Source of the DNA: a virus
Length of the DNA: 20,268 nt
IMG/VR virus record: IMGVR_UViG_3300047550_000971
Location: 1-20,268 of that record
Reading direction: 5' to 3' (one strand)
In this document: piece after piece, positions 1,302 through 19,479 of the stretch
Position numbering within the stretch: position 1 is the first letter of the stretch
How the letters are laid out: every line of letters begins with the position of its first letter
Notes under the pieces: model-generated
Seen by the model: only the letters and a program-made list of their open reading frames with translations
The model's database searches: none
Told to the model about the DNA's origin: nothing
Made by a program: the position numbers and the translations under genes

Positions 1302-2213
1302 TTACATTCCACCAAGGAAGAAAGTAGTAGCAGGACCACCACTTCCTATTTGTTCATAACTTGTTCCATTAATTGTATATTCCCAAGCATCAGTAGTTTC
1401 ATTCCAACGAATTTCAACATCTGGAGATGTTCCTCGTTTTACCTTAATAGATGCATCAGATGATGGAGATCCTGTTGTTAAAGAATTAAAAACAAGATTT
1501 GATGGTCTAAAGTTAATTGTGCCGCCAGCCTCACCCATGTTCATAATAGTTGCAGAAACTGCAATATTTGCAGTTGTCACATTATTTAAAAAATCAAAGG
1601 TAGATGCAGAAGATGTTAATCCACCACCATGTACAAGAAGATCTCCTGCAAGAATTGTTTCTGAATTCCAAATTGTTGTATTGCCAGTTTTTGAACCAAT
1701 ATTAATATCTGTTCCAGCCATTCCTAAGTTAATTACTAAAGCATTTGTATTAAACAAACTAGCATTAGAAGACGTAGTAGAAATATCTCCACCATTTACT
1801 GCAAGATCATTTCTAATCGTTGTTGTTCCAGATGCTGATCCCATAGATATTGCACTGGCAGACTGCCCAAGATTCATTGTTAAAACATTATTATTAAAAA
1901 TATTCATTGTTGATGCTGATGAAGTCATATCTCCACCATTAATTGCAATATCTCCAGCAAGGGTAATATTATTAAATAATGTTGTTCCTGTATCTTGAAT
2001 AGTAAAATCTACTTTACCAGTTAAATCATTATATGTAGCAGTCATTCCGACTTGTACCCCACCAGTAATTAATCCAGCAGTGTAGTCTTCAATTGATTCT
2101 TGAAGAATATTATCAATTCTTCTTGCCAACTGTTCAACATCTGAAGAAACATTTACTGGATCAGTAGACTTTGGATATGGAAGAGCATATTTTGGTGTTG
2201 TACCTGTAGCCAT
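1302..2213 (-). CDS. Tail fibre protein with triple internal repeat and FFLGGM end
   Basis: A 303-residue structural protein. Residues 8-40 (YALPYP...DPVNV...EQLARRID) form an N-terminal segment I associate with phage tail proteins, probably for attachment to the virion. Residues 90-238 hold three related beta-rich repeats built on a GGD/GGG turn, SSAS, an asparagine-rich strand and (M/I)G...G(T)I. Residues 256-287 (KVKRG...RWNET...WEYT..GTSY) repeat a module also present in the fibre at the right edge of the window. The protein ends SGGPATTFFLGGM, a hydrophobic C-terminal tag shared with four other genes here. No Shine-Dalgarno site precedes the ATG; an extended -10 box lies 6 bases away. 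Last fibre gene of the array. Receptor specificity unknown. Confidence 0.85.
   Translation of the reverse strand: MATGTTPKYALPYPKSTDPVNVSSDVEQLARRIDNILQESIEDYTAGLITGGVQVGMTATYNDLTGKVDFTIQDTGTTLFNNITLAGDIAINGGDMTSSASTMNIFNNNVLTMNLGQSASAISMGSASGTTTIRNDLAVNGGDISTTSSNASLFNTNALVINLGMAGTDINIGSKTGNTTIWNSETILAGDLLVHGGGLTSSASTFDFLNNVTTANIAVSATIMNMGEAGGTINFRPSNLVFNSLTTGSPSSDASIKVKRGTSPDVEIRWNETTDAWEYTINGTSYEQIGSGGPATTFFLGGM
1500..1946 (-). repeat. Three degenerate in-frame repeats within the fibre gene
   Basis: Codons for residues about 90-136, 138-192 and 193-238 encode three diverged copies of a repeat of about 46-55 residues: (I/V)(N/H)GG(D/G), SSAS, an N-rich strand, then (M/I)G and GT-TI. It looks like a beta-helix or shaft repeat. 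Confidence 0.6.
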
Positions 2214-2219
2214 AATTTA

Positions 2220-2228
2220 ATTATATCA
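2220..2228 (-). promoter_or_regulatory. Extended -10 box, leaderless start
   Basis: TGATATAAT on the minus strand ends exactly 6 bases before the ATG at 2213. No Shine-Dalgarno site lies between, so the predicted +1 falls on the start codon. Confidence 0.65.
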
Positions 2229-2257
2229 AATGATACTTTATAAAATTTTTATTTTTT

Positions 2258-2743
2258 TTACTCAGAATCTTCTACCCAAATCCACTGTTGAGCATTTTCA
2301 TCCCAAACCCACCTTCCCCCTGGTTTTTGAGGTGGCATTGGAGTTGGAGGCTCCCACTCATGCGTATCATGATCCCAGTGCCAAGATGGATATGGTGATT
2401 CAGGAATAGTTGTAGTAAAGTTAGAAACTATTTCAAAATTTTTATTGTCATTAATTGCCCACACCTTTATTTTATAGGTAGAGTCTGGAACTAAGTCATC
2501 AATTATTGTTGAATACATATAGTCTTGATTAGTAGATATGAATTGTACATCGTCTTTTGGAAAAGTTTCACTATTAATAATATATCCATTTATAATAACT
2601 TCGTATCCAAAAGAAAGATTGATAAAATTTACTGGAAAACCATCATTATCACGAAATCCTATTTCTAATATAATATTGTCACTATTAACCTCGCTATCAT
2701 TTTCTAACCAAGTTAGGTTTACAATATCTCCAATAAATTTCAT
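2258..2743 (-). CDS. Fn3-like protein with tryptophan/proline-rich tail
   Basis: A 161-residue protein of unknown exact role. Residues 1-115 have the strand pattern of a fibronectin type III or Ig-like domain, with DLVPDSTYKIKVWAIND (83-99) resembling the conserved Fn3 E-F region. Residues 119-160 are unusual: two W-x-W-D units (121-124 and 145-148) flank a proline-rich stretch EPPTPMPPQKPGG, and the protein ends acidic. Similar WDxxTxxW-PPTPMP segments occur, from memory, in cyanophage appendage proteins. The codon use is very AT-rich. It follows the AWCPY gene closely, with a TAAAAT box sharing that gene's stop codon. Probably a virion decoration or fibre-associated protein; function inferred from context only. 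Confidence 0.75.
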   Translation of the reverse strand: MKFIGDIVNLTWLENDSEVNSDNIILEIGFRDNDGFPVNFINLSFGYEVIINGYIINSETFPKDDVQFISTNQDYMYSTIIDDLVPDSTYKIKVWAINDNKNFEIVSNFTTTIPESPYPSWHWDHDTHEWEPPTPMPPQKPGGRWVWDENAQQWIWVEDSE

Positions 2744-2749
2744 AATTTT

Positions 2750-2758
2750 ATTTTACCA
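2750..2758 (-). promoter_or_regulatory. Extended -10 box (variant TAAAAT) overlapping upstream stop
   Basis: TGGTAAAAT ends 6 bases before the ATG at 2743. The first three bases of the hexamer are the TAA stop of the preceding gene. This is the only box that departs from TATAAT. Confidence 0.5.
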
Positions 2759-3157
2759 TACTCCAGGAACTATTATCTTTTTCTCTACAACAGTATTTTT
2801 TATTGGTGTTGGAGAAGTACTACCTTTAGGGTAGTCTATTTTGTTTAATATTAAATAGTTTTCTAATCTTTCATTTGCCATATACCCAACAAACTCTTCT
2901 ATTATTCTCCAATGATGCATAACAATATAGTATTCAGCATATGGACACCAAGCACCGTATACACCAAATGGCCCAGTTTCTTCTAAAATAACTTCCCAAA
3001 GATCAACGTCTTCAAATCTTATTTCTCTGTTACCATCCCAAGGTATTGGTTCTGGAGCATATTGCCATATTCGATCATAATTCATCCAATTATCATCAAA
3101 AAATTCACCATCATTTTTAACATTTAATAAATTTTGAGTAGTTTTCCAACGAGGCAT
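2753..3157 (-). CDS. AWCPY-family small phage protein, copy 1
   Basis: A 134-residue protein, paralogous to the gene at 13181-13570. Shared features are KTTQ near the start (5-8), FEDVDLWEVI (48-57), GVYGAWCPYAEYYIV (65-79), an EF.G..ANE stretch (88-96), a DYPK motif (108-111), and an IIV near the C-terminus. There is no signal peptide or membrane segment. Proteins of this type sit beside fibre genes in marine phages as far as I recall, but I know of no assigned function. Both copies lie immediately downstream of a glycine-rich fibre gene, which suggests a dedicated partner, for example an assembly factor or a cap. The fixed Cys71 within AWCPY is notable. Start supported by the extended -10 box 6 bases upstream. 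Confidence 0.85.
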   Translation of the reverse strand: MPRWKTTQNLLNVKNDGEFFDDNWMNYDRIWQYAPEPIPWDGNREIRFEDVDLWEVILEETGPFGVYGAWCPYAEYYIVMHHWRIIEEFVGYMANERLENYLILNKIDYPKGSTSPTPIKNTVVEKKIIVPGVW

Positions 3158-3163
3158 AGGTGA

Positions 3164-3172
3164 ATTATATCA
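3164..3172 (-). promoter_or_regulatory. Extended -10 box, leaderless start
   Basis: TGATATAAT ends 6 bases before the ATG at 3157. It lies in the short gap after the stop of the glycine-rich gene. Confidence 0.65.
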
Positions 3173-3174
3173 AA

Positions 3175-3966
3175 CTACTGTAATGGATAACGAATAATAA
3201 CTACACCTGCTGCTGAAGTGTTTGCAGTACTTGCCCCTTGGCCAGTATTTGGTGCAGCAGTTTGTGCGCTACCTGCGCCACCTCTAGCATATGTTACAGA
3301 TGATCCTGAAATACTATTTTCTAAACCAGCACCATTAGATGCTCCTGATCCAGCAGATCCAGCACCGCCGCCTCCGCCGCCTGCCCCCTTATTACTAATA
3401 CCCCAATAAGCATCTGCTAAGAATGATGGTGAACCATTTCCACCGTTATTTCCCTCTCCTGGTGTTCCAGCGCCACCAGCCCCAGGAGCAATAGCATTAT
3501 ATCCAGTTCCTGCCCCTCCACCGCCAGATCCCCCAGTTCCTGCGGTTCCAACAGAATTTCCAGCACGTCCATGACCGCCACCAGTTGTTGAGATTGTTCC
3601 ATAACTTGAACTATTGCCATTACTTCCAGGATTTCCACCATCACCACTAGTACTGCCAGCACCTCCAGCAGTTCCTACTGTTGTTGATGTACTTCCTAAT
3701 TGAGCATATAGTGATCCAGATTTATATCCACCTGCACCACCACCACCACCTAACCCACCGCCTGCTCCGCCTGCTCCAGCAACAACTAGATATTCAACAG
3801 TTCCTGGAAGTTCTACAACAAAATTTGTAGTTCCAGAGGTAAATGAGTGAATACGATATCCACCAGATTCTACAATACTTCCACCAGTAGCAACAACCTT
3901 TCCACCACTAGCAAAAAATCTAGAATTTCCTACAATACCTCTTGCGTTTGCACGCATAACAGCCAT
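3175..3966 (-). CDS. Glycine-rich tail fibre/adhesin, subfamily 1
   Basis: A 263-residue protein. Residues 1-60 form an N-terminal domain with SGGYRIHSF (34-42) and EYLVVAGAGG (58-67). The rest is a long glycine-rich region (GGLGGGGGAGGY at 70-81, GGGHGRAGN, GGSGGGGAGTGY, GGGGGGAGSAG) closing in AAGVVIIRYPLQ. This is the glycine-rich adhesin architecture seen in phage fibre tips, where glycine-rich motifs pack as polyglycine-II-like bundles and the loops bind receptor. Closest relative in the window is 16927-17805 (shared SGGY.IH.F and GGGGGAGGY). The ATG overlaps the preceding stop as TAATG, with GGAG 8 bases upstream, so it is translationally coupled. Other-frame ORFs inside it are products of the repetitive glycine codons. 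Confidence 0.88.
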   Translation of the reverse strand: MAVMRANARGIVGNSRFFASGGKVVATGGSIVESGGYRIHSFTSGTTNFVVELPGTVEYLVVAGAGGAGGGLGGGGGAGGYKSGSLYAQLGSTSTTVGTAGGAGSTSGDGGNPGSNGNSSSYGTISTTGGGHGRAGNSVGTAGTGGSGGGGAGTGYNAIAPGAGGAGTPGEGNNGGNGSPSFLADAYWGISNKGAGGGGGGAGSAGSGASNGAGLENSISGSSVTYARGGAGSAQTAAPNTGQGASTANTSAAGVVIIRYPLQ

Positions 3967-4298
3967 TATGTAATCTCCGAAACAAATGCCTGAAATGTCA
4001 TAGTATTAGCAGAAGAAGAAACTCTAATGAAAGTTCCTGCTGCTAAAGATACTCCAACAGTTAAAAAGACAGTATCGTTGGCTGGTACTGTACCACCATA
4101 TACTAGCCAATCTGCTGCCACTGGATCAGTTGCGCTTGTAGCAAAACCAATTCTATATGTTCCAGAAGATCCAGCGGTATTGCAAATAGCAATTGTTGAT
4201 AATACTGACTGAGTTGATGCAGGCACTTGATATAAAGTTGCATATGTTGTTACAGCAGCAGTGCCTTGAACTCCTGATCTTTTATATGTTGTTGCCAT
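3966..4298 (-). CDS. Small beta-sandwich appendage protein
   Basis: A 110-residue all-beta protein without recognised catalytic motifs. It matches the C-terminal 95 residues of the protein at 15512-16306: PAST followed by ST(I/L), YRI or YQI, VY, ANDT, a long hydrophobic strand and a final EI(T/A). The wider family, with the N-terminal domains at 8986-9771 and 17805-18536, shares the pattern SVxATNxSxS...YIVY...F. It precedes a glycine-rich gene in both places it occurs, so it may be the collar or base on which that fibre sits (inference). The start has a good Shine-Dalgarno sequence (AAGGAG, 8 to 10 bases upstream) and an extended -10 box further out. Confidence 0.82.
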   Translation of the reverse strand: MATTYKRSGVQGTAAVTTYATLYQVPASTQSVLSTIAICNTAGSSGTYRIGFATSATDPVAADWLVYGGTVPANDTVFLTVGVSLAAGTFIRVSSSANTMTFQAFVSEIT

Positions 4299-4319
4299 GT
4301 TTTTTTACTCCTTCAAGAA

Positions 4320-4328
4320 ATTATATCA
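4320..4328 (-). promoter_or_regulatory. Extended -10 box with short Shine-Dalgarno leader
   Basis: TGATATAAT is separated from the ATG at 4298 by 21 bases that contain GAAGGAG. The predicted mRNA would have a leader of about 15 bases, in contrast to the leaderless arrangement elsewhere. Confidence 0.6.
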
Positions 4329-4331
4329 CAG

Positions 4332-4958
4332 TTAACATCCAATAAGAAAAAACGACCCTGTTCCACTACCAACTTCATCTCCACCAGAGAATAAGATTCC
4401 TCTTTCATCTACCCAAGAAACTGGTGTTCCAGATGAATCTTGCCATTCTTGTATTTTTGCTGTTTGTGATCCAGATGCTCGTACTGTAATTCCTTTATGA
4501 CCTGGATTTGCAATATTTACTGTAACTGCTGTTGTAGTAGGAACTGTAGTAGATCCAATTGCTGCATACCCCGCTAAAGTAAATGTTCCACCAGTAGACA
4601 TTGTTGCAATATTAGTTAGTGATGAATTCTTCCATTCTTGCAAATTTGAAGTTTGTGATGAAATAGCACGAATAGTAAGTGGAACAGTAGTTGTTGTTTG
4701 AGCAATAATTGTATTTGCAGATGCTGACTGAGAAACTTGTTCAATATAAATATTTCCTAATCCAGCAAGGGATGATTCAGCGGAAGTCAGACGAATATCA
4801 AGTTTTCTAAAATTACCCTCAATACTATCGTCTGGAATAGGTTGTGAAGAATAATTATCTACACCATAATGATAAACTCGTAATGCCTCTTCTATAGAGG
4901 AATCATCACCAAGACTTGGAATTCTACTTTTATATTGACTTCCTACTGGTTGTGACAC
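4332..4958 (-). CDS. Tail fibre protein with paired QEW repeats and FFLIGC end
   Basis: A 208-residue fibre protein starting at GTG. Residues 9-65 (YKSRIPSLGDDSSIEEALRVYHYG, then DDSIEGNFRKLD) form an N-terminal domain that I recognise from phage tail proteins. Two repeats follow: RA.SSQTSNLQEWKNSS near 96-112 and RASGSQTAKIQEWQDSSG near 159-176, each leading into a beta hairpin. The protein ends GSGTGSFFLIGC, one of five hydrophobic C-terminal tags in the window. The start is set by AAGGTG seven bases upstream of GTG; an ATG four bases earlier is in another frame and gives no long product. It follows the baseplate-like pair and precedes the beta/glycine-rich/AWCPY block. Confidence 0.83.
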   Translation of the reverse strand: MSQPVGSQYKSRIPSLGDDSSIEEALRVYHYGVDNYSSQPIPDDSIEGNFRKLDIRLTSAESSLAGLGNIYIEQVSQSASANTIIAQTTTTVPLTIRAISSQTSNLQEWKNSSLTNIATMSTGGTFTLAGYAAIGSTTVPTTTAVTVNIANPGHKGITVRASGSQTAKIQEWQDSSGTPVSWVDERGILFSGGDEVGSGTGSFFLIGC

Positions 4959-4976
4959 TCATATTCACCTTGTTTT

Positions 4977-4985
4977 ATTATACCA
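4977..4985 (-). promoter_or_regulatory. Extended -10 box sharing the upstream stop codon
   Basis: TGGTATAAT, 18 bases before the GTG at 4958, with AAGGTG in between. The TAA inside the hexamer is the stop codon of the preceding gene (GTG GTA TAA). Confidence 0.6.
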
Positions 4986-5562
4986 CTGTGATATTAAGTG
5001 CAATATCTATGGTGGTAGTTACATTTGACCAGGTAGAGGATGAATATTTAATTGCTTCTACAACTATTTCTAAGTTTGTTGAAACAATACTTTTTGAATT
5101 AATAGTAAGAACAGTAGGATCTGTACTTACCGCAGTCATCGTAACAACATAATTATCAGATGTTAGTCCAGTAATTGTTGACGGAATAATGTCTGCAATT
5201 GGAATAGATACTGTTCCAATACCGTTGGTAAATGACTGACTCACTGTTGTTGCATATACTGGTGGCTGTAATCGTAATACCTGATCCCATTGATCACCAG
5301 TTACTTTTGGATTATAAACATATAACCATCCATATTCTGAACCTGTAGCGGCATTAATATAAACATCTCCCTCTATAGGAGTAATAGCGCTACCAAAAAC
5401 ATTTTCAGATACTACAGAATCATTTGGATCTCCTGCGCCAGCATAGAATGTAGATCCTCTTGGACCTTGTTCCCCCCTAGAAACAGATACATTAATAACA
5501 TCAGGTGGACCCAATACAACAAGATCATCTGTGTTGACCACTACATCGAATACCGCTGTCAT
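4978..5562 (-). CDS. Baseplate/fibre protein with collagen-like GxxGPxG segment
   Basis: A 194-residue protein. Residues 18-36 include GPPDVINVSVSRGEQGPRG, a short collagen-like segment of a kind frequent in phage appendage proteins at domain borders. Residues 41-100 (AGAGDPN, GDVYIN, GWLYVYN) form a small beta domain related in layout to the GDLWVD-type repeats. From about residue 101 onward there is a separate beta-rich domain rich in Thr, Ser, Ile and Val. AAGGA lies 5 bases before the ATG and overlaps the previous gene's stop, so it is coupled to 5571-5924. Its stop codon is embedded in the next promoter box. Probably a baseplate-proximal connector. Confidence 0.8.
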   Translation of the reverse strand: MTAVFDVVVNTDDLVVLGPPDVINVSVSRGEQGPRGSTFYAGAGDPNDSVVSENVFGSAITPIEGDVYINAATGSEYGWLYVYNPKVTGDQWDQVLRLQPPVYATTVSQSFTNGIGTVSIPIADIIPSTITGLTSDNYVVTMTAVSTDPTVLTINSKSIVSTNLEIVVEAIKYSSSTWSNVTTTIDIALNITVV

Positions 5563-5570
5563 AATTATCC

Positions 5571-5924
5571 TTATGGTGTTGTAATGTCTGCTGTCACAGT
5601 TATTGTGCCAGTCAGCAGGGTGTATACAATGTTTGGATTAGTTTTACTTTGAATAGAAACATCGTAATAGTATGTTACTGATGGTGATAATAGGTTTCCA
5701 ACGCTTGGATTTAATGTGCAGGTAACACTGTTATCTGATATGGCTGTACTTCCAGTTAATGTTGCACTTGCCGATGTACCCCTGCCTGTTGAAATATAAA
5801 AATATGCATCATAGGCTGCTGAGGTAACAGGAAAAATTTCTCCCGCTGAAGTTTTTGGACGTACCACAAATTGATAAGTATCACCTTTATAATAACGTAT
5901 ATTATATGTTGCAGGAAATGCCAT
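5571..5924 (-). CDS. BppU-like / Ig-like small baseplate protein
   Basis: A 117-residue all-beta protein. RYYKGDTYQFVV (10-21) and YYYDVSIQS (85-93), followed by a threonine-rich last strand ending in DITTP, match the layout of small Ig-like phage proteins resembling the N-terminal domain of BppU-type baseplate upper proteins, which attach receptor-binding proteins to the tail. No signal peptide. The ATG has AAAGGTG 7 to 13 bases upstream, and a TGCTATAAT box beyond that. It forms a two-gene unit with the following collagen-like protein. The family call rests on sequence pattern alone. Confidence 0.8.
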   Translation of the reverse strand: MAFPATYNIRYYKGDTYQFVVRPKTSAGEIFPVTSAAYDAYFYISTGRGTSASATLTGSTAISDNSVTCTLNPSVGNLLSPSVTYYYDVSIQSKTNPNIVYTLLTGTITVTADITTP

Positions 5925-5941
5925 TCAAATCACCTTTGTCT

Positions 5942-5950
5942 ATTATAGCA
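5942..5950 (-). promoter_or_regulatory. Extended -10 box with short Shine-Dalgarno leader
   Basis: TGCTATAAT lies 17 bases before the ATG at 5924, with AAAGGTG between them. It sits in the short gap after the 52-residue gene. Confidence 0.6.
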
Positions 5951-5960
5951 GTTTCATTTA

Positions 5961-6119
5961 CTATGGATTATATGGTTTTGGAGTTTTTCCCTTTGCTAAC
6001 CAAGCAAGATAACGTTGATAATCTACACTTTCATGATTTTCCAACATTGAAATCATTACATTACCATCAATAAAAATAATAACCTCTTGACCACTTGGAC
6101 TAACTGTAATGTAATACAT
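5961..6119 (-). CDS. 52-residue fibre-associated protein (YLAWLAKGKTPKP)
   Basis: A short gene of 52 residues beginning MYYITVSPSGQEV and ending YQRYLAWLAKGKTPKPYNP. The segment YLAWLAxGxTPxP is common at the end of phage tail-fibre assembly and fibre-associated proteins. The ATG overlaps the stop of the preceding fibre gene (TAATG, sharing one base), and GGAG lies five bases upstream, so it should be translated by coupling. Otherwise the stretch from 5961 to 6118 would be empty, which is out of keeping with this tightly packed region. Likely a dedicated chaperone or tip partner of the upstream fibre; function inferred. Confidence 0.75.
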   Translation of the reverse strand: MYYITVSPSGQEVIIFIDGNVMISMLENHESVDYQRYLAWLAKGKTPKPYNP

Positions 6120-7507
6120 TATAACTCCGCACTAAAAGCAATAGATGCAGCAATATTATTTGTATAGGCAAGGCACGCTTGGCCAGCAGTAGATGAAACT
6201 TCAGTTGAATTATAAAGACGACAACTATTTTCTGTTGCAAGATCTAATGTAAAACTATTAACATAGTCTACACCACCGCTTCTATTTAATGCATAGTAAT
6301 CAGTTCCAGTTGTTATTATTGCCACTGGTGTTGTACGCATAGATACAGGGAAAAATATTCCAACATCAACCTGGTTTGAAGCAAAAAATGAACCAATCGC
6401 AATTATTTTACTAGTACCACTAATAGGTTTGTGATAATATCTTTGGCATTCCCGCAACTCTTGACTATAATTTTTAAATTCAAATGTTGTTGGATTTGAA
6501 TTTGCCTCTAGTTGAACACCAGTTATTTGCCAATAATTATTAATTGCAGATGCAAGATTTGTTTGACCTACAACACGGTTTATATTAACTGTTGATCCCC
6601 AAGTAGTCTGCAATGATCCAGAGGATCGGTCTGATCCAGCACCTAGCCAAAAATTTAAATATAATGATGCAGCATTATCATTATCAAATGTACCAATCGT
6701 GTCTGCTGGAAATGTTATAATCTTGCGCTCCCAAGTTGCACTTGCACTAATTGTATAAGAAGCAGATACGGAACGAGTATTATCCGCATCTTGTAATTCA
6801 GCAATATATGTTCCAGTTACGTTTGATTTTACCCAAAATGAAAGTGTTAATGGTTGTGCTGATGCTGTTCCTTTAGCAATACGCTGAAGATCCTGACCTT
6901 CAAGAAATTGCGCTATAAAATTAACATCTGAAGCAGAAGGTGAAGCATCAGCGGTTGTACATAACATTCGTAAAGATTTTCTAAATCCACTTCCAGTTGG
7001 TGCATCATTTTCAATATTTTGTGTCCATGTTCCAAGACTACTAATACCATGATACCAACGATCAGCAGTACGATAATCACCAGTAGTAATTCCTGTAACA
7101 CTGGCACTTCTTTGGTTAATTTGCATACTGCCGTTATATAACAAATTTCTATTTGAAAATAATGGTGCTTGATCATAAACAAATGCAGTAGTAGCAATTT
7201 GAGTATTATCTGTACCCACCGATGCAGTGGGGGCAGTTGGAATGCCAGTTAGTGATGGTGAAATCTTTGTTGCATATGTTGTAGAAGCACTAGATTGAGT
7301 TAAATATGCAGATAGATCAACTACTACACTAGTTGCTGTCCATGTTGTACCGTTCCAAACACTCAAAACATTATTATCTGAATCTATCCATAAATCCCCC
7401 GTACCTGCGGCGGTAGGAGATGCAGATTGATACTTAGCCCCAATTAATGATCCAATAGGAATCCATTCAGATCCTGTATAGACGTACGCTGGTTTTCCTG
7501 GTGGCAT
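6119..7507 (-). CDS. Large tail fibre, NLLYNG/CQRYY module, AEL end (copy 3)
   Basis: A 462-residue fibre. Residues 26-57 form a GDLWIDSD...WNGTTW repeat; 68-80 carry a YLTQSSASTTYA shaft repeat; 88-113 include the TQIATTAFVYD element common in fibre shafts. Residues 121-358 form the large conserved module: NLLYNGSMQINQR, TADRW, DAPTGSGFRKSL, LEGQDLQ, LTLSFWVKSN, ITFPADT, QTTWG, ITGVQLE, ELRECQRYY. It resembles a carbohydrate-binding jelly-roll. The last 100 residues are unlike the paralogues at 7526 and 9789 until the shared FSAEL end, so this is the likely receptor-binding tip. Start is ATG with a -10 box 7 bases upstream and no Shine-Dalgarno site. Confidence 0.9.
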   Translation of the reverse strand: MPPGKPAYVYTGSEWIPIGSLIGAKYQSASPTAAGTGDLWIDSDNNVLSVWNGTTWTATSVVVDLSAYLTQSSASTTYATKISPSLTGIPTAPTASVGTDNTQIATTAFVYDQAPLFSNRNLLYNGSMQINQRSASVTGITTGDYRTADRWYHGISSLGTWTQNIENDAPTGSGFRKSLRMLCTTADASPSASDVNFIAQFLEGQDLQRIAKGTASAQPLTLSFWVKSNVTGTYIAELQDADNTRSVSASYTISASATWERKIITFPADTIGTFDNDNAASLYLNFWLGAGSDRSSGSLQTTWGSTVNINRVVGQTNLASAINNYWQITGVQLEANSNPTTFEFKNYSQELRECQRYYHKPISGTSKIIAIGSFFASNQVDVGIFFPVSMRTTPVAIITTGTDYYALNRSGGVDYVNSFTLDLATENSCRLYNSTEVSSTAGQACLAYTNNIAASIAFSAEL

Positions 7508-7514
7508 AATAAAT

Positions 7515-7523
7515 ATTATATCA
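7515..7523 (-). promoter_or_regulatory. Extended -10 box, near-leaderless start
   Basis: TGATATAAT ends 7 bases before the ATG at 7507, directly after the TAA of the preceding fibre gene. Confidence 0.62.
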
Positions 7524-7537
7524 GTTTAGAGTTCAGC
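7515..7537 (-). repeat. Junction repeat, copy 1 (23 bp)
   Basis: Spans the last codons (SAEL end), the stop codon and the -10 box. It matches 9778-9800 at 22 of 23 positions by direct comparison; the single difference is the third base of the last Leu codon. Confidence 0.8.
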
Positions 7538-8971
7538 ACTAATACCAATATACCCTGCTGTATTATTATTATTAGAAATAATATACATTGTTCCAGCAGT
7601 CAATCCACTTGCTACACCTAAATAAACTTCTGTTGCTGTTGTAGTACCAGCACCAATACTTGATGTTGTAACAGCAGTAATTGTTGATGTTGGGATATGT
7701 AATCCTATATTAGAAACTTCAACTGCTGTTGGCGGAACTCTCATATCTACTGTTTTTTGTATTAGACACACTGAGTTTGTTGTACTTATTGCTCTTGCCC
7801 AACCATGTGAGGCATATGCACCAACTGGGGTATTAGATCTCCAATAATACCTTTGACATTCAGAAAGTTCTTGACCATAAGATTTAAATTCATATCCAGT
7901 AGCAGAACTACCAACTTCTAACTTTACCCCTGTAAATTGGATATATTGACTAGCAGTTAATAAAGTTAGTCCTGGTGCTCTTGCACTTGCAGTAGTTCCC
8001 CAAGTAGTTTGAAGATTTGATAAACTTCCAGGACTTGATGTGCCTCCTGTGCCGTATGTTGATCCTCCTGCAAGCCAAATATTTAATTGTAAAGAACCAT
8101 TATTATCATTATCTAGTACCCCGCTAGTATCTGCTGGAAATGTAATAGTCTTATATTCCCATGTTTGAGATGAGGATGTTCCACAGGATGCTGAAACATA
8201 TCTGCTATTATCAATATCCTCTAATTCAATAATGAGTGTTTTTGTAGCATTTGATTTAATCCAAAAAGAAAGAGTAAGTTGTTGAGCACTTGCTGAACCC
8301 TTTCGTATTGACTGTAAATCTTGCCCCTCTAATGTTTGACAAATTAAATCTTTTGTACCACCACTTGGAAGCATTGAATTTGTATCAGTACAAAGCATTT
8401 TTAATGATTTTCTAAATCCAGATCCTGTTGGTGCGTCATTTTCTACAGATTGAGTATATGTTCCATTACTAGACCCAGTGCTGAATTTCCATCTATCAGC
8501 AGTATAATAGGCATTAACGCTTGTCCCAGTTAATCCAGATGCGCTTGCAGATCTTTGAACCACCTGCATGGCTCCGTTGTATAACAAATTAGAATTAATT
8601 GCTGTGCTACCACTTGGCAATCCTGACACCGATGCACTAGTAAATACAACAGAAGCACTAGTAAAGTTTACCGTCCCAGTAAATGAAGGGGAGTTTATTC
8701 GGGCATATGTAGTTGATGCACTACTTTGTGTTAGATATGTTGCAGATGCACTAGATATTCTTAAGTAATTTGCTGATGCATCAACTTTAGATAAATAATC
8801 ATTAGCATCAAAAACATTAATTGTACTATCAGAATCTATCCATATTTGACCAGTAAATGCACTAGCAGGTGCAGAGGCTTGATATGCTGCAATAGCATTT
8901 GGGGAAATAAGCGGAGTAGAAATATTTGCCCATTCTGTACCAGTCCACACCCTGGCATTTTTATCAGTCAT
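7526..8971 (-). CDS. Large tail fibre, NLLYNG/CQRYY module, AEL end (copy 2)
   Basis: A 481-residue fibre, the largest here. Its first residues (RVWTGTEWANIS) are a short attachment-like W motif. Residues 40-56 are a GQIWIDSD unit. Residues 69-91 carry consecutive YLRISSAS / YLTQSSAS / TYARI shaft repeats, followed by FTGTVNFTS. The conserved module (128-377) has the same landmarks as its two paralogues: NLLYNGAMQ, TADRW, DAPTGSGFRKSLKML, LEGQDLQ, LTLSFWIKSN, QTTWG, GVKLE and CQRYY. Residues 378-476 are a divergent tip; the end is GISAEL. An insertion rich in Gly, Ser and Thr (303-318) is absent from the other copies. The -10 box is 8 bases from ATG. Confidence 0.9.
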   Translation of the reverse strand: MTDKNARVWTGTEWANISTPLISPNAIAAYQASAPASAFTGQIWIDSDSTINVFDANDYLSKVDASANYLRISSASATYLTQSSASTTYARINSPSFTGTVNFTSASVVFTSASVSGLPSGSTAINSNLLYNGAMQVVQRSASASGLTGTSVNAYYTADRWKFSTGSSNGTYTQSVENDAPTGSGFRKSLKMLCTDTNSMLPSGGTKDLICQTLEGQDLQSIRKGSASAQQLTLSFWIKSNATKTLIIELEDIDNSRYVSASCGTSSSQTWEYKTITFPADTSGVLDNDNNGSLQLNIWLAGGSTYGTGGTSSPGSLSNLQTTWGTTASARAPGLTLLTASQYIQFTGVKLEVGSSATGYEFKSYGQELSECQRYYWRSNTPVGAYASHGWARAISTTNSVCLIQKTVDMRVPPTAVEVSNIGLHIPTSTITAVTTSSIGAGTTTATEVYLGVASGLTAGTMYIISNNNNTAGYIGISAEL

Positions 8972-8979
8972 GATAATTT

Positions 8980-9771: not shown

Positions 9772-9777
9772 ATACTG

Positions 9778-11173: not shown

Positions 11174-11175
11174 GA

Positions 11176-11808: not shown

Positions 11809-11814
11809 GATTTA

Positions 11815-11820
11815 ATTATA
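11815..11820 (-). promoter_or_regulatory. -10 box sharing the upstream stop codon, leaderless start
   Basis: TATAAT ends 6 bases before the ATG at 11808. The upstream reading frame ends GGG GTA TAA, so its stop is inside the box. The TGN extension is missing (GGG). Confidence 0.55.
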
Positions 11821-12639: not shown

Positions 12640-12640
12640 A

Positions 12641-13165: not shown

Positions 13166-13171
13166 AATTAG

Positions 13172-13180
13172 ATTATATCA
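13172..13180 (-). promoter_or_regulatory. Extended -10 box, leaderless start, tandem TATAAT
   Basis: TGATATAAT ends 6 bases before the ATG at 13165. A second TATAAT directly upstream (13179-13184) contains the previous gene's TAA, giving TATAATGATATAAT. Confidence 0.65.
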
Positions 13181-13570
13181 TTATACGATTATTGTTTGTT
13201 GAGCGGGTATATTTTTATAGGTAACACTATTAGTTTTTGGATATCTAATACCCATTTGTACTAATACTTGTTCTGCCGCTTCATTTGCACCAAATCCATA
13301 AAACTCATAAAGAATAGTTCCTTGATTGGTAATGATATAGAGTTCATCATATGGACACCATGCACAATATACCCCGATTCCATTACCAGTTTCTGTAATT
13401 ACCTGCCAAATATCTACATCTTCTACTCGTAATGGACGTAATCCATTCCAATTATATGTGGGGGGTAGATCATTAATTCCATCTCGTAAATTATCATATT
13501 CTGATTTCATTAAACCTTGATTAGGTAAAAGTATATGTTGTGTTGTCTTAAATCGTACTCTTCTACTCAT
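13181..13570 (-). CDS. AWCPY-family small phage protein, copy 2
   Basis: A 129-residue paralogue of 2753-3157. Conserved landmarks: FKTTQHILL (7-15), RVEDVDIWQVI (48-58), GIGVYCAWCPYDELYII (64-80), YEF.GFGANEAAE (88-100), RYPK (109-112) and a C-terminal QQTIIV. Its ATG overlaps the stop of the glycine-rich gene upstream as ATGA, so it is made with that fibre. No Shine-Dalgarno site stands out. Unlike copy 1 it has no promoter box of its own. Function unknown; the strict linkage to glycine-rich fibres is the main clue. Confidence 0.85.
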   Translation of the reverse strand: MSRRVRFKTTQHILLPNQGLMKSEYDNLRDGINDLPPTYNWNGLRPLRVEDVDIWQVITETGNGIGVYCAWCPYDELYIITNQGTILYEFYGFGANEAAEQVLVQMGIRYPKTNSVTYKNIPAQQTIIV

Positions 13571-14538
13571 AGAACGTATCTTATCATAAGAATGCCATCT
13601 GATCCATTACCACCATATTGTCCATATCCATTTGCCGCGCTGTTTGTTCCTCCACCACCGCCACCAGAACCAATTGCTATTGGGGTTGCGCCATTAAATC
13701 CTTGCCATGCTGCACTGTTTGAATTTCCACCAGATCCTCCAACCTGATATGAATCAACAAGACCACCACTTCCTCCAATGTTATTTGCCCAGCCTCCACC
13801 ACCACCACCTGCTGCCATTGCTATATCAAGTCCGTTAAAGTTAATTTTTACCCCATTTCCTCCTGCACCACCGACGTTTGACCCTGTATTAAGACCTGTA
13901 GTGGAATAACCCCCACCTCCACCACCTCCTACACTTCCAGATGTTGCCCCATCCCTTCCTTGTCCAGGTGTTCCAGCACCTCCTGCTCTAGCACCAATTT
14001 GATAATGATATGAGCCACCTCCACCACTACCTCCTGCTACACCAAGTGCATTTGCTTGTGAACCATAATGACCACCCCTTCCACCAGCAATGGCGGTAAA
14101 AGGCCCAAATGTTGTATTAGTTGCACTAACTAATCCAATACCAACGCCACCTATACCAACAGAAAAAGAATAAGAGTCAGTTGTATTAACATAATAATTG
14201 TATTGAAGTATTAGTCCTCCAGCACCTCCACCGCCTCCACAATAATTAGTATAAGATTGTTGTGTAGCATCTCCAGCGTGGTAATATCCATGACCGCCTG
14301 GGGCACCACCTGCAACCATTAATATATCAATTAAACCAGCCTTAGTAAAATTAACTGTTCCAGTTGTATTTCCATTAAATTCATGAATTCTATATCTATA
14401 TGTTGGAGTAGTATTTGTTTGTCCATTACCTTCAAATTCATATGTTTTTGCAAATGCTGGAGGGTTATTAATAAACGCTCCACCAGTTGTTGAAATTGGA
14501 GTAATATAATATGGAGACTTTAATCTTTCTATAGCCAT
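13567..14538 (-). CDS. Glycine-rich tail fibre/adhesin, subfamily 2 (downstream copy)
   Basis: A 323-residue protein with the N-terminal MAIERLKSPYY shared with its neighbour. Residues 1-74 form a beta domain (YRYRIHEF 47-54, DILMVAGG 71-78). Glycine-rich blocks begin at 80 (PGGHGYYHAG) and continue through CGGGGGAGG, AIAGGRGGHYG, GGSGGGGSYHY, VGGGGGGGYS, AAGGGGGGWANN, and SGGGGGGTNSAANGYGQYGG, ending DGILMIRYVL. The glycine blocks alternate with short variable loops, as expected of glycine-rich adhesin tips. Shine-Dalgarno AGGAAA lies 5 bases before ATG, overlapping the neighbour's stop (GTA TAG). Antisense and frame-shifted ORFs in it are by-products of GGN repeats. Confidence 0.88.
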   Translation of the reverse strand: MAIERLKSPYYITPISTTGGAFINNPPAFAKTYEFEGNGQTNTTPTYRYRIHEFNGNTTGTVNFTKAGLIDILMVAGGAPGGHGYYHAGDATQQSYTNYCGGGGGAGGLILQYNYYVNTTDSYSFSVGIGGVGIGLVSATNTTFGPFTAIAGGRGGHYGSQANALGVAGGSGGGGSYHYQIGARAGGAGTPGQGRDGATSGSVGGGGGGGYSTTGLNTGSNVGGAGGNGVKINFNGLDIAMAAGGGGGGWANNIGGSGGLVDSYQVGGSGGNSNSAAWQGFNGATPIAIGSGGGGGGTNSAANGYGQYGGNGSDGILMIRYVL

Positions 14539-14546
14539 AATATTTC

Positions 14547-15512
14547 CTATACTGGGTACCTTATTATAATAATTCCACTACTTCCATTACCTGGATATTG
14601 ACCATAACCATTAGCAGCACTATTAGTTCCACCACCGCCACCTCCGCAGCCTAATGCTGTTGGATTTGATCCATTAAAGTTTTGCCATGCGGCACCACTT
14701 GAACTTCCACCAGTACCTCCAGTTATTACACCATCTACAAGTCCACCATTTCCAGGAGTATTTTGTGCCCAACTTCCACCACCACCTCCAGCGCACATAG
14801 GACGAACTATACCATCAAAATTTATACTCACACCATTTCCACCATTTCCACCCGCATTAGTTATTGAATTAGATCCTACTGTTGCATATCCACCACCACC
14901 AGCAGCCCCTACTCCAATACATCTACCTCCTTGATTACCTTGAGTAAACACTCCTAATCCTGGATAACCACTACCAGCGTAATAATGATATGACGCTCCT
15001 CCACCAGATCCACCACTTATTCCAGCAGAGTTACCTGTTCCACCATAATGACCACCGCGTCCTCCTGCTAATGCAGTAAATGCTCCAAATACTGTATTAG
15101 TACCAGGAGTCAATCCAACTCCAGTTCCTCCAACTCCTACAGAAAATGTATACCCAATAGAAGTTTCAACCCTATACTTATAAATAAACATTAATGCTCC
15201 TGCACCACCACCACCTCCTGCATAGTTTGTATTTAGTGCATCACCAACAGTTCCAGCATGGTAGTATGCATATCCTCCTGGAGTTCCCGCACCAACTAAC
15301 ATAATATCTACAAATCCAGAATTAAGAAAATACAATGTACCACTTAATCCAGATGTAAATTGATGTACCCTATATAATTGTCCTGCTACCGTTCCAGTTT
15401 GTCCAATACTTGTAAATGTATATGTTGAACCTAATGCTGGAGTTTCAAGATATGCAGATGGTGAATTAACAGTGGGTACATAATATGGTGATCGAAGTCT
15501 TTCAATAGCCAT
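14547..15512 (-). CDS. Glycine-rich tail fibre/adhesin, subfamily 2 (upstream copy)
   Basis: A 321-residue tandem paralogue of 13567-14538. The two align over their full length: MAIERL(R/K)SPYY, (V/I)DI(M/L)(L/M)V, PGG..YYHAG, AGGRGGHYG, GGSGGG.SYHY, GGLVD, and the identical stretch GGGGGGTNSAANGYGQY, ending GIIIIRYPV. The variable parts are the loops, for example 180-200 (PGLGVFTQGNQGGRC). ATG overlaps the previous stop (TAATG) with GGAG 8 bases upstream, the same junction as at 3966. It was probably produced by tandem duplication and then diverged in loops; this would alter binding rather than fold (inference). Confidence 0.88.
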   Translation of the reverse strand: MAIERLRSPYYVPTVNSPSAYLETPALGSTYTFTSIGQTGTVAGQLYRVHQFTSGLSGTLYFLNSGFVDIMLVGAGTPGGYAYYHAGTVGDALNTNYAGGGGGAGALMFIYKYRVETSIGYTFSVGVGGTGVGLTPGTNTVFGAFTALAGGRGGHYGGTGNSAGISGGSGGGASYHYYAGSGYPGLGVFTQGNQGGRCIGVGAAGGGGYATVGSNSITNAGGNGGNGVSINFDGIVRPMCAGGGGGSWAQNTPGNGGLVDGVITGGTGGSSSGAAWQNFNGSNPTALGCGGGGGGTNSAANGYGQYPGNGSSGIIIIRYPV

Positions 15513-16306
15513 TATGCAATCTCCATACCAAAAACATTGAATGATATGTTTGGATTAGATGCGGTAAATAATAAATATTTGACAGTAGAATCAAGTGTTA
15601 AGCCTAGTGTCATTGTTATCGTATCATTTGCCGCTATTAAATCATTATAAACAATATAATGTTTATTTGATGGAGTAAGAGAGTCAGCAACTGCAATTTG
15701 ATATGATGCACTTGTTGTTGAACTTCTATTTGTTACTACTAAAGTTGACGTAATTGCAGAGGTACTTGCTGGACAAGTATAGGCAGTAACCCAAGGGTAA
15801 TAAACAACAGTACCAGACATTGATGTTGAAGAAACATCTGTACCATTAAACACATAAGTAAATTGATTAGTTGATGCTGATGCAACAGTGTATGTTCCAT
15901 TAAATGCTAGGTCTTTTCCTGTTACTGTACCGCTGGATGCAGAGGATGAAACGTTTCCAGCATTTTTAACATAACTAATATTATTTCCAGAAACGTTAGT
16001 AAGTGTGTAACTACCATTAAATGTTGCGTCTACTCCTGTTACCGTTACTGCTGTACCCACCGTAAATCTTGGAGCGGTAGTTAAAGTTAATGTAGCAACA
16101 CTAGCACTTAATGCTTTATTAGAAACGGTATAAGATGCATCAGTTGTTTCTGATATAAGAATATTTTGTCCAACTGGTATACCGTGGGCTGAAGCAGTAG
16201 TAATTGTTACTACACTAGCACTCAATACTTTGCTAGTTGCAGCAATAGATGCTGAAGCAGTAGTAAGTTGACCTAAAACTTTATATGTTGTTGTCTTTGT
16301 TGCCAT
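15512..16306 (-). CDS. Beta appendage protein with inserted HG(I/L)-type repeats
   Basis: A 264-residue protein. Its last 95 residues (about 170-264) match the 110-residue protein at 3966-4298: CPAST, STL, SYQI, YIVYNDLIAANDT, FNVFGMEIA. Inserted after the first 13 residues are about 150 residues of repeats: VTITTASAHGIPVGQNILIS (33-52), LTTAPRFTVGTAVTVTGVDATFNGSYT (75-101), then DLAFNGTYT...FTYVFNGTDVSS (132-160). These are tandem beta modules of a type common in phage proteins. I start at the ATG at 16306 because GGAG lies 6 bases upstream; a TTG at 16318 would add four residues. It begins one base after the previous stop. Confidence 0.84.
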   Translation of the reverse strand: MATKTTTYKVLGQLTTASASIAATSKVLSASVVTITTASAHGIPVGQNILISETTDASYTVSNKALSASVATLTLTTAPRFTVGTAVTVTGVDATFNGSYTLTNVSGNNISYVKNAGNVSSSASSGTVTGKDLAFNGTYTVASASTNQFTYVFNGTDVSSTSMSGTVVYYPWVTAYTCPASTSAITSTLVVTNRSSTTSASYQIAVADSLTPSNKHYIVYNDLIAANDTITMTLGLTLDSTVKYLLFTASNPNISFNVFGMEIA

Positions 16307-16307
16307 A

Positions 16308-16535
16308 TTATGCTCCAACCAACAAGAAGTCTACTGGTAATGCTGTTCCACTTCCTACTGCTGTCCAAGATGTTCCATCATAGTATTCTAAACTATCTTC
16401 ATCAAGAATATATACTACTGTACCTTCTGCTGGACTTGGCATTGCTGCATCTCTTGCAGCGGCACTTGAATAAACTTTAATATCGTTAATGTTTGTGGTA
16501 TCAGCAGTAGCAGTAGGAATAAGTAGCCCAGGCAT
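16308..16535 (-). CDS. Short fibre protein with RDAAxPSPxEG domain and FLLVGA end
   Basis: A 75-residue protein. Residues 20-58 (KVYSSAAARDAAMPSPAEGTVVYILDEDSLEYYDGTSWTAVG) form a small beta domain that I have seen embedded in many phage fibre proteins; here it stands almost alone. The end is GTALPVDFLLVGA, one of the five hydrophobic tags of the FFLGGM type. There is hardly room for a receptor-binding tip, so it looks like a minimal module plus tag. The start ATG is 6 bases from the extended -10 box, with no Shine-Dalgarno site. First gene of the longest unit (five genes). Confidence 0.83.
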   Translation of the reverse strand: MPGLLIPTATADTTNINDIKVYSSAAARDAAMPSPAEGTVVYILDEDSLEYYDGTSWTAVGSGTALPVDFLLVGA

Positions 16536-16541
16536 ATTAAG

Positions 16542-16550
16542 ATTATACCA
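16542..16550 (-). promoter_or_regulatory. Extended -10 box, leaderless start
   Basis: TGGTATAAT ends 6 bases before the ATG at 16535, in a 25-base gap after the previous gene. Confidence 0.65.
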
Positions 16551-16560
16551 TTATTGAAAA

Positions 16561-16908
16561 CTACGTTACTCTATTTACATATCCATAAATGGATACTACA
16601 TTTACTATACTAGAATATGCTCGTATTGGTAAAGAATTATTTAAAAATAATCCAGGTACAACTAGTACTAGTCCAGATTCCCCTGGAATTGAAATTTCAA
16701 TTTGATCTGCTGTTGATGTACCACCAAATTCAACATCTAAAAATGCAGTAGAAGCAGATGTATTTTGACAATAAATCCAAACTTCATCAAATGATGCTGA
16801 TCCTGAAACAGCGGTATGAATTAAAGTTCCTGGTGTAGCACTTGCAGATACTAAAATACCTCTTCCATTTGTTGATCCTGAAAAAGGAATTTTAGAAAAA
16901 GTTGCCAT
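16561..16908 (-). CDS. Small beta-sandwich appendage protein
   Basis: A 115-residue all-beta protein, MATFSKIPFSGSTNGRGILV at the start and VVSIYGYVNRVT at the end. Its layout (TPGTLIHTA, DEVWIYCQNTSAS, LVLVVPGLFLNNSLPIRAYSS) parallels the N-terminal domains of 8986-9771 and 17805-18536 (xTLLHTA, VIATNxSAS, then a strand pair), so it appears to be a single-domain member of that family. No catalytic residues are apparent. It is a one-gene unit: -10 box upstream and another promoter downstream. Probably a fibre collar or decoration protein. Confidence 0.8.
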   Translation of the reverse strand: MATFSKIPFSGSTNGRGILVSASATPGTLIHTAVSGSASFDEVWIYCQNTSASTAFLDVEFGGTSTADQIEISIPGESGLVLVVPGLFLNNSLPIRAYSSIVNVVSIYGYVNRVT

Positions 16909-16914
16909 GATTAA

Positions 16915-16923
16915 ATTATATCA
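16915..16923 (-). promoter_or_regulatory. Extended -10 box, leaderless start
   Basis: TGATATAAT ends 6 bases before the ATG at 16908; it lies three bases after the previous stop. Confidence 0.65.
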
Positions 16924-16926
16924 TTG

Positions 16927-17805
16927 TTAAGAATAAAGATATCTTATAACAACTATGCCATTAGTTCCAGAGCCACCAGTTCTTGGAGCAGTTGGATATC
17001 CAGCAGAACCTCCACCACTACCAATACCAGTAGCGTTAGATCCTGTTGTAGTTCCACTTCCATTTCCACCGCCACCAGTGCCGCCAGTTCCTCCTGTGCC
17101 ACTATATGCCCCACCGCCGCCGCCTGCACAGTAATAAGTTGATGTTCCAGTAATTGAATTCAATACTCCACCACCTCCATTTCCACCAGTTCCTCCACTG
17201 GCGGCACCACCTACTGAGCCTGCTCCACCACCTCCACCTCCTGAACCATAATTATCTGATCCACCAGTATTACTTCCACTTCCTCCATTATTTCCTTGTC
17301 CAGCAGTTCCTGCACCACCAGAAAAAATAGAACCTCCTGCTGCATTTGAGCGCGACGCTCCACCACCTGAGCCTCCACTAAATCCTGCTCCAGCATTGGC
17401 GTAAGATCGGCCAGCGCCACCGCCTAGTGCTGTTAAATTAAATACTGATGAACTTTCTCCGTTATTTCCATTTGCGTCAACCTGTGAAACTGCACCACCA
17501 TTACCAACAACTATGCTGTAAGTAGTTGTTTGCAAAGATATTGATCCTGTTAAATATCCACCTGCACCACCGCCACCGCCAATTCCACCAGAGCCACCGC
17601 CTCCACCGCCCACTATTAAATAGTCTGCAATAGATGTTATGTTGTTCAATATATATGAGACTATTAATGAACTAGTACTATTAAATGTATGTATCTTATA
17701 TCCACCACTAGTAACTATATTTCCACCTACAGCATCAGAAAAAATTTTTAAACCAGAAAAGGGATCACTAACCCTTTTACTAACCATAAATCTTTGTACA
17801 CTCAT
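16927..17805 (-). CDS. Glycine-rich tail fibre/adhesin, subfamily 1
   Basis: A 292-residue protein with SGGYKIHTF (33-41), ADYLIVGGGGGGSGGIGGGG at 60-79, GGYLTG, GNGGAVSQ, GGGAGRSYANAG, a long stretch GSGGGGGGAGSVGG, YYCAGGGGGAYSG, and the end TNGIVVIRYLYS. It matches 3175-3966 in the N-terminal part and in the first glycine block. The N-terminal extension (1-24, VQRFMVSKRVSDPFSG) is its own. AGGATG lies about 8 bases before the ATG, which overlaps the previous stop (TAATG). It follows a beta appendage protein, repeating the order beta protein then glycine-rich fibre. The AWCPY gene that follows the other two glycine-rich loci is absent here. Confidence 0.88.
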   Translation of the reverse strand: MSVQRFMVSKRVSDPFSGLKIFSDAVGGNIVTSGGYKIHTFNSTSSLIVSYILNNITSIADYLIVGGGGGGSGGIGGGGGAGGYLTGSISLQTTTYSIVVGNGGAVSQVDANGNNGESSSVFNLTALGGGAGRSYANAGAGFSGGSGGGASRSNAAGGSIFSGGAGTAGQGNNGGSGSNTGGSDNYGSGGGGGGAGSVGGAASGGTGGNGGGGVLNSITGTSTYYCAGGGGGAYSGTGGTGGTGGGGNGSGTTTGSNATGIGSGGGSAGYPTAPRTGGSGTNGIVVIRYLYS

Positions 17806-18536
17806 TATGAAAACATCCTTTGTGCAATAATTAATTGGCTATCATCTACCGCTGCGCCCAGGGCAACCCAGGTAGTTCCATTATAAACCTTTAATTGCAT
17901 AGATGTACTATCTACCCATAGATCACTAGTAGATGGAGATGATGGTTCAGAAGCCTGCAATGGTATGGATTTTTCATAATTACTAATACCGTTTGGAAGA
18001 ACTACTGTTCCAGTAAATGTATTATTACCGCTCCAAGTATAGTTTCCATCAGTATTTAATGCTCCACCTGCTAATTCAATCCACGATGTACCGTTCCAAA
18101 TATAAGTTGGTTTTGCACTTGATCCAGAAACAGTTCCATCAGAATCTACCCAAATTTGTCCTTGTACTGGACCAACTGGAGCGGTAGTTGAATAAGCATT
18201 AGCAATATATCCAAATGTTACATCATATTGAATAATTCCATACCCCTGACAAGAAACACTAGCACTTGTTGTTCTAACCTTCACTGTATCGTTAGTATTC
18301 ACAGCAAACCTAAATGTTTCATAGGAGTTCAATCCATCAACTGGAAGTTCATAAACAATATAAGCATATTGAGAAGCAGATGCAGTACCTGCTGGTTCTA
18401 CCCACACAGAAAGATCAGCGGAACTTGCAGATTTATTTGTTGCAATAACAGACATTAAATATTGATTATCAGCAGTAAATAATGTGGTATCTGTATCAGC
18501 AGATGGATTAGATATTGCAAGTCTTTTTAGTCCCAT
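17805..18536 (-). CDS. Fibre/appendage protein with two LWVDS-type repeats
   Basis: A 243-residue protein, paralogous to 8986-9771. N-terminal domain 1-107: LKRLAISNPSADTDTTLFTADNQ, SVIATNKSAS, QYAYIVYELP, ETFRFAVNTND. Then QGQIWVDSDG...WNGTSWIEL (125-155), a shaft piece GNNTFTGTVVLPNGISN (170-186) and STSDLWVDSTSMQLKVYNGTTW (202-223). It ends QLIIAQRMFS without any of the three recurring C-terminal tags. GGGAG lies about 9 bases before the ATG, inside the end of the preceding gene. The next gene, a glycine-rich fibre, overlaps its stop, suggesting it may serve as the attachment base for that fibre. Confidence 0.86.
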   Translation of the reverse strand: MGLKRLAISNPSADTDTTLFTADNQYLMSVIATNKSASSADLSVWVEPAGTASASQYAYIVYELPVDGLNSYETFRFAVNTNDTVKVRTTSASVSCQGYGIIQYDVTFGYIANAYSTTAPVGPVQGQIWVDSDGTVSGSSAKPTYIWNGTSWIELAGGALNTDGNYTWSGNNTFTGTVVLPNGISNYEKSIPLQASEPSSPSTSDLWVDSTSMQLKVYNGTTWVALGAAVDDSQLIIAQRMFS

Positions 18537-18539
18537 AGT

Positions 18540-19454
18540 TTATACTCCCAACCACCATGAGTTTGATAGTGCAACGTCTGTTTGCACACTTCCACCTCCA
18601 CCACCACCTGTTGGAGTTTTATTTTTCCATAATCCTGTTGCAGATTCATATGTCAATACTTGATCATTGAGTGGACTTGTTATCAAAACGTTATGAAGTT
18701 CTTGTAGTTCATATCCATTTTGTGGATTGATAAATACTCTTCCAGAAGACATATTACTACTTAAACAATAGCCAATAAACACACTATGATCTGGTTGTGT
18801 TGGTACTGTTTCAGTTAATTCTCCAGGGGTAGTTGAGAGCCATAATTTATTACCCGCAGTAAATGATGCAGTATTTAAATTACCAACTACGCCAAATGTT
18901 GCAACAAATCCTTCTGAACCATTAGATATTTCTTCTGCCGTTATACCCAAAGTTTTACTAGATGTTGATTCAGCAGAAGCAGAAGATAGTGCTATTGATG
19001 GGCGTTGGCCTTGTGCCCCAACAATATAAACTACCTTACCTTTTGGAATAGCAGATCCTGTACCGTTATAACAAAGAACAACTTCTTCTTTGCCTACTCC
19101 TAAATTAACATTTCCACCCTTTAAGGTAAAGGTAAGAGTTCCTTCTCCATCATCCCATAGTAATCTTCCTACCTGTGCTGTAGCAGCGGCAGAAGCATTA
19201 GTATCAAAATCTACCCCACTGATATCAAATGTACGATCAGTATCTCGTAAAACTAAAGTATTTGGAATATTTAAAACGCTACCACTAGCACTTGAACTTC
19301 CTCCACCACCAGAGGCTATTTCTACCCAGGCTGATCCATTATAGTATTTGTATGCACTAATAGTAGTGTTATAGTATATTTCTCCACTCGTCCCTGCTGC
19401 TGGATCAGATGCAAGGTTAACAATTCTTTGTGGAGTTAACAGCCTTGTAGCCAT
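18540..19454 (-). CDS. Tail fibre/appendage protein with WWLGV end
   Basis: A 304-residue protein. Residues 9-45 (QRIVNLASDPAAGTSGEIYYNTT...YYNGSAWVEI) are a linker module common in phage fibres. Residues 98-260 form a recognisable appendage domain: LLWDDGEGTLTFTLKGGNVNL, IPKGKVVYIVGAQGQRPSIALS, KTLGITAEEISNGSEGFVATFG, LWLSTTPGELTETVPTQPDHSVFIGY, ELHNVLI. A short VLTYESATGLWKN segment (267-278) then a hexaglycine linker precede the hydrophobic end NSWWLGV. The start at 19454 is preferred over one 24 bases upstream because a TATAAT box lies exactly 6 bases ahead of it, as at other genes. First gene of a three-gene unit after the hairpin. Confidence 0.87.
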   Translation of the reverse strand: MATRLLTPQRIVNLASDPAAGTSGEIYYNTTISAYKYYNGSAWVEIASGGGGSSSASGSVLNIPNTLVLRDTDRTFDISGVDFDTNASAAATAQVGRLLWDDGEGTLTFTLKGGNVNLGVGKEEVVLCYNGTGSAIPKGKVVYIVGAQGQRPSIALSSASAESTSSKTLGITAEEISNGSEGFVATFGVVGNLNTASFTAGNKLWLSTTPGELTETVPTQPDHSVFIGYCLSSNMSSGRVFINPQNGYELQELHNVLITSPLNDQVLTYESATGLWKNKTPTGGGGGGSVQTDVALSNSWWLGV

Positions 19455-19460
19455 AATTAT

Positions 19461-19466
19461 ATTATA
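19461..19466 (-). promoter_or_regulatory. -10 box, leaderless start
   Basis: TATAAT ends 6 bases before the ATG at 19454 and overlaps a second TATAAT (19456-19461). The TGN extension is missing (AGG). It decides the start of the gene. Confidence 0.55.
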
Positions 19467-19479
19467 CCTTTTTTGCATT

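Follow-up and report, generated by a model that had tools for sequence, protein, structure and literature searches.

Extended -10 promoters, in which TGN adjoins the -10 box, can dispense with a -35 element, and TGN-TATAAT is the sequence that ordinary sigma-70 is known to bind best. The late promoters of T4-like phages carry a TATAAATA box that is read with gp55. TA-led genes, defined in silico by Zheng et al. (2011), make up >20% in Actinobacteria, and the same study also described a TG extension of the box in genomes of low GC content (PMC3160421). In M. tuberculosis, the mapping by Cortes et al. (2013) gave 26% leaderless genes and TSSs with a purine at +1 and a pyrimidine at -1 (PMC3898074), and Shell et al. 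(2015) found that a 5'-terminal ATG or GTG suffices in mycobacteria (PMC4633059). The gene starts described here match this published actinobacterial leaderless class, common in the bacterial hosts, and may be a further case of it. We put at roughly 85% the probability that this actinophage fibre block consists of about 14 extended -10 units read by host RNA polymerase with its main sigma factor, 11 of them leaderless and three leadered.

The window, by which we mean the whole stretch of DNA analysed, is a 20,268-base viral record (IMGVR_UViG_3300047550_000971), a 20 kb fragment with a GC content of 38%. Among named phages the window had no megablast match, and an Rfam search returned zero matches over threshold. 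The best named-phage match of its ribonucleotide reductase (RNR) was Actinomycetia phage DSL-LC01 (60% identical), with Mycobacterium phages next, and the protein was 75–80% identical to many large IMG/VR contigs, hereafter the relatives. Of the 20 relatives searched, the 8 longest encode WhiB, an actinobacterial protein, with scores above the family cut-off. RNR kinship and WhiB together point to a place among actinophages for the window, and it appears to be part of an uncultivated tailed actinophage with freshwater-type actinobacteria as hosts. Homologues of the window genes at 5571–5924 and 4978–5562 were adjacent, with their order kept, in two relatives. One relative had matches to portal, protease, DnaB-like helicase and DNA polymerase, a set that does not point to a T4-type phage.

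A block of short genes, all on the same strand, occupies most of the window, and several of their products are tail-fibre or virion-protein-like, with phrog_4492 matched at 6119–7507, 7526–8971 and 9789–10946. The features are as follows.

1..1182 (-), ribonucleotide reductase; continues past the window edge and ties the window to actinophages
1302..19454 (-), fibre block of ~26 short genes on one strand; 14 predicted transcription starts
2220..2228 (-), extended -10 TGATATAAT; gap 6 to ATG 2213; predicted leaderless
2750..2758 (-), extended -10 TGGTAAAAT; gap 6 to ATG 2743; predicted leaderless
3164..3172 (-), extended -10 TGATATAAT; gap 6 to ATG 3157; predicted leaderless
4320..4328 (-), extended -10 TGATATAAT; gap 21 to ATG 4298, SD AAGGAG between; leadered
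4977..4985 (-), extended -10 TGGTATAAT; gap 18 to GTG 4958, SD AGGTGA; leadered
5942..5950 (-), extended -10 TGCTATAAT; gap 17 to ATG 5924, SD AGGTGA; leadered
7515..7523 (-), extended -10 TGATATAAT; gap 7 to ATG 7507; predicted leaderless
8980..8985 (-), -10 TATAAT without TG; gap 8 to ATG 8971; predicted leaderless
9778..9786 (-), extended -10 TGATATAAT; gap 6 to ATG 9771; predicted leaderless
11815..11820 (-), -10 TATAAT without TG; gap 6 to ATG 11808; predicted leaderless
13172..13180 (-), extended -10 TGATATAAT; gap 6 to ATG 13165; predicted leaderless
16542..16550 (-), extended -10 TGGTATAAT; gap 6 to ATG 16535; predicted leaderless
16915..16923 (-), extended -10 TGATATAAT; gap 6 to ATG 16908; predicted leaderless
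19461..19466 (-), -10 TATAAT without TG; gap 6 to ATG 19454; predicted leaderless

A recount in the window found all 14 boxes where the original prediction had placed them, and its counts were correct as well: nine gaps of 6 bases, one of 7 (7507) and one of 8 (8971), the remaining three being 21, 18 and 17. TGN precedes the box at 11/14 starts, the exceptions being 8971 (TAG), 11808 (GGG) and 19454 (AGG). The start at 19454 is likelier than the in-frame upstream ATG at 19478, because the latter precedes the -10. Directly upstream of this -10 is a strong hairpin, GAAGGGGG...CCCCCTTC (window 19480–19507, about -24 kcal/mol), which has no T-run on the coding strand. The RNR start at 1182 has no leaderless -10, and an inverted repeat, TACTTTCG...CGAAAGTA, lies directly upstream of it at 1195–1223. 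Fibre-block proteins of differing size end alike at the C-terminus, in FFLGGM/FFLIGC/WWLGV-type strings (1302, 4332, 8986 and 18540), in AEL (6119, 7526 and 9789) or in the IIRY/VIRY/MIRY type (3175, 13567, 14547 and 16927). These common endings are possibly attachment or folding tails.

The placement of the boxes was strongly non-random. Under a first-order Markov model, 1.9 occurrences of TATAAT-N5-8-ATG were expected, whereas the minus strand has 12 and the plus strand 0; its TGN form occurred 7 times against 0.14 expected. Eleven of the 27 minus-strand gene starts had a box at gap 6–8 (shuffle mean 1.05, maximum 6 in 20,000), 8/27 with TG (shuffle mean 0.06, maximum 3), and other ATGs had one at 8/421 internal minus-strand and 5/332 plus-strand sites. 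Random frequency of the motif inside coding DNA, which the original prediction had named as an outcome that would tell against it, is therefore not what the counts show. At 38% GC, with TATAAT present 47 times in all, the window offers ample material for chance strings in AT-rich DNA, but the contrast between gene starts and internal ATGs, with the low shuffle mean, refutes chance as the explanation, and we regard it as vanishingly improbable.

For every gene of the window we listed the distance upstream, the -10 box and any SD, and the starts fell into three classes. The first comprises the 11 starts with a box at gap 6–8, whose predicted mRNA has no SD. The second comprises three starts with TGN-TATAAT at 17–21 and a clear SD in between (AAGGAG, AGGTGA and AGGTGA). 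Most of the remaining starts form the third class, at ≤8 bases from the preceding stop or overlapping it and mostly with short SD-like strings; these genes are probably co-translated with the preceding gene, the exceptions being ribonucleotide reductase and the window-edge gene. SD-like strings were found at 1/11 leaderless starts versus 13/16 others (p = 3e-4), and the single case, AAGG at 19454, precedes the -10 and would thus not be part of the predicted mRNA. All 11 leaderless starts were ATG, and all 11 had a pyrimidine at -1, as expected for an initiating purine. The long-gap boxes at 4298, 4958 and 5924 carry an SD and are thus ordinary leadered promoters. Leaderless mRNAs are well supported by these features for 11/14 starts but not for the other three; of the roughly 14 units that the fibre block would comprise, 11 are predicted to be leaderless and three to be leadered.

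In this anatomy the locus resembles actinobacterial TA-led genes, with a TANNNT-like box ~12 bases upstream (gap ~6) enriched at 11/27 starts, no SD, a start codon of ATG or GTG but never TTG, a pyrimidine at -1, and RNA predicted to begin at the start codon. It differs from TA-led genes in being phage-borne, in its near-full consensus TATAAT with TG and in its density within a fibre block. We found no earlier report of leaderless starts in such an actinophage lineage in the literature searched, and the window offers a clean example of them in an uncultivated actinophage lineage, at the level of sequence. In such phages, gene callers that expect an SD may put starts in the wrong place, whereas the TGN-TATAAT-N6-ATG signature allows starts to be corrected and transcription units to be separated. 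It may also help to recognise phage contigs with actinobacterial hosts.

The absence of a -35, noted in the original prediction for the cases inspected, was borne out. The best matches to TTGACA upstream of the boxes had 2–4 mismatches, no better than shuffles of the window, and the sigma-70 predictions listed for the window include none of the 14 boxes. The gaps between genes into which the boxes fit were mostly 7–25 bases; many of the promoter-holding ones measured 14–25 bases, just long enough for an extended -10 plus 6 bases, so any -35 would sit in the preceding gene. Among the relatives, 7/43 boxes had a good -35 match (0–1 mismatch) versus 1.4 expected. The boxes share with extended -10 sigma-70 promoters the TGN that adjoins the -10; unlike the usual examples, they are fitted into gaps between genes such that +1 would coincide with the ATG.

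We counted the motif in seven WhiB-positive relatives (G001–G004 and G006–G008, loci L114–L150; 645 genes). In the relatives and in the host genomes, each long open reading frame was given its first start codon as the gene start, so percentages per gene are approximate; the peak at gap 6 is independent of this shortcut. The search of related phages proposed with the original prediction gave a peak of -10-like boxes at gap 6, with 43/645 genes and typically 5–15 at other gaps. TGN preceded 25/43 of these boxes, a pyrimidine was at -1 in 38/43 versus 281/645 overall, and 42 starts were ATG and 1 GTG (n = 43). SD strings were present at 10% of starts with a box at 6–7, 79% of those with TGN boxes 15–24 upstream and 45% of the rest (p = 3e-8). 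The box sites were spread across the genomes, beyond fibre or late genes. Density set the window apart, at 14 sites in 20 kb versus 13–24 in 90–110 kb for the relatives overall, although some 10 kb stretches of the relatives hold 6–7 sites; the window fibre block is unusually promoter-dense. A TGRTACAAT box with an SD was kept upstream of 3/5 homologues of gene 3966–4298. The nearest homologues of the fibre proteins, which are in other phages, have no motif, which indicates that the motif belongs to the phage lineage and did not travel with the fibre proteins.

The relatives also showed a smaller TGN-TATAAT peak at gap 9 (19/645 genes, 16 with TGN; for example TGGTATAATagattaatcATG), which may reflect leaders of 3 bases or a wider spacing between -10 and +1. 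Together with the gaps of 7 and 8 in the window, this second peak fits a reading in which the boxes are real promoters and the mRNAs have tiny leaders, with +1 lying 1–5 bases upstream of the start; alternatively, a longer upstream transcript could be translated, as the genes are closely packed and read-through is likely. Both variants sit poorly with the dominance of the exact gap of 6, the invariable pyrimidine at -1 in the window, the missing SD sites and the identical exact gap in actinobacterial genomes, and we judge it unlikely that the mRNAs are not leaderless.

Candidate host genomes were fetched with an acI 16S probe and included Planktophila isolates, their identity being that given in the record titles. 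LanE-43 and P. versatilis, both Nanopelagicales, were sampled over 200 kb each; a gap of exactly 6 between TANNNT and the start was found in 35/176 and 30/174 genes, respectively, with 0–9 at other gaps. The gap-6 share is thus about 20% of genes in these two genomes of plausible hosts. A tRNA comparison gave best matches of about 79–91% in the class and did not separate the orders. Exact TATAAT-N5-8-ATG was not above control in the nine genomes fetched by the probe, and it was the looser TANNNT that showed enrichment. Boxes in the hosts have the form TAGNCT and no TG, and TATAAT was never found in the sampled genes; this accounts for the lack of enrichment of exact TATAAT in the hosts and means that the phage promoters do not copy those of the hosts. 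We consider it improbable that the phage lineage uses a promoter class distinct from its host's (TGN-TATAAT vs TAGNCT) that is favoured by an unrecognised phage-encoded polymerase-binding protein. Were that so, the leaderless fibre genes would be switched on as a set and translated despite impaired host SD-dependent initiation.

The boxes had been likened in logic to the late promoters of T4-like phages, and a phage-encoded sigma factor or modified polymerase had been suggested as their reader. As in those promoters, a -10-type box without a -35 is found near late-type genes; unlike them, the boxes have another sequence and occur genome-wide, and the relatives have no gp55 family or sigma regions. 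The TATAAATA box occurred 0 times on the coding strand of the window, and the gp55 family (phrog_234), found in T4 as the positive control, was absent from the 20 relatives, leaving the likeness to T4-like late promoters unsupported. With the window being a fragment, a phage sigma-like gene was sought in the relatives, and none was found: Sigma70_r2 and Sigma70_r4 were present in 0/20 relatives, which are contigs not established as complete genomes. T7-type RNA polymerase (PF00940) gave no match, but the control was silent too. On the Sigma70_r2, Sigma70_r4 and gp55 PHROG searches of these 20 relatives, the T4-like or phage-sigma candidate was rejected.

These results, the spread of the relatives' motif beyond structural genes and the preference of ordinary sigma-70 for TGN-TATAAT make it improbable that a phage sigma factor or polymerase modifier, like T4 gp55, reads TGN-TATAAT as a late promoter, even though the phage has an extended TATAAT where the sampled hosts have TAGNCT, no -35 was seen and Planktophila phages E7 and F5 encode a sigma-70 factor (PMC10202952). 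As a putative explanation it is enough to invoke the host RNA polymerase and its main sigma factor. With this host enzyme as the reader, the fibre block would be split into about 14 short transcription units, each starting at an extended -10 promoter (TG in 11/14) that does not need a -35. At 11 units the -10 sits 6–8 bases before the ATG, and the RNA 5' end would fall at or within 1–2 bases of the start codon; the host ribosome would then initiate on leaderless mRNA, which is routine for actinobacterial ribosomes. At the other three the -10 sits 17–21 bases upstream and would leave room for an SD. Downstream genes of each unit would be translated via coupling or weak SD sites.

Several tRNA genes were present in the relatives, at L120–L125 (G002) and L114–L119 (G001), and in G002 the 3' end of a tRNA-like sequence is immediately followed by a -10 box.
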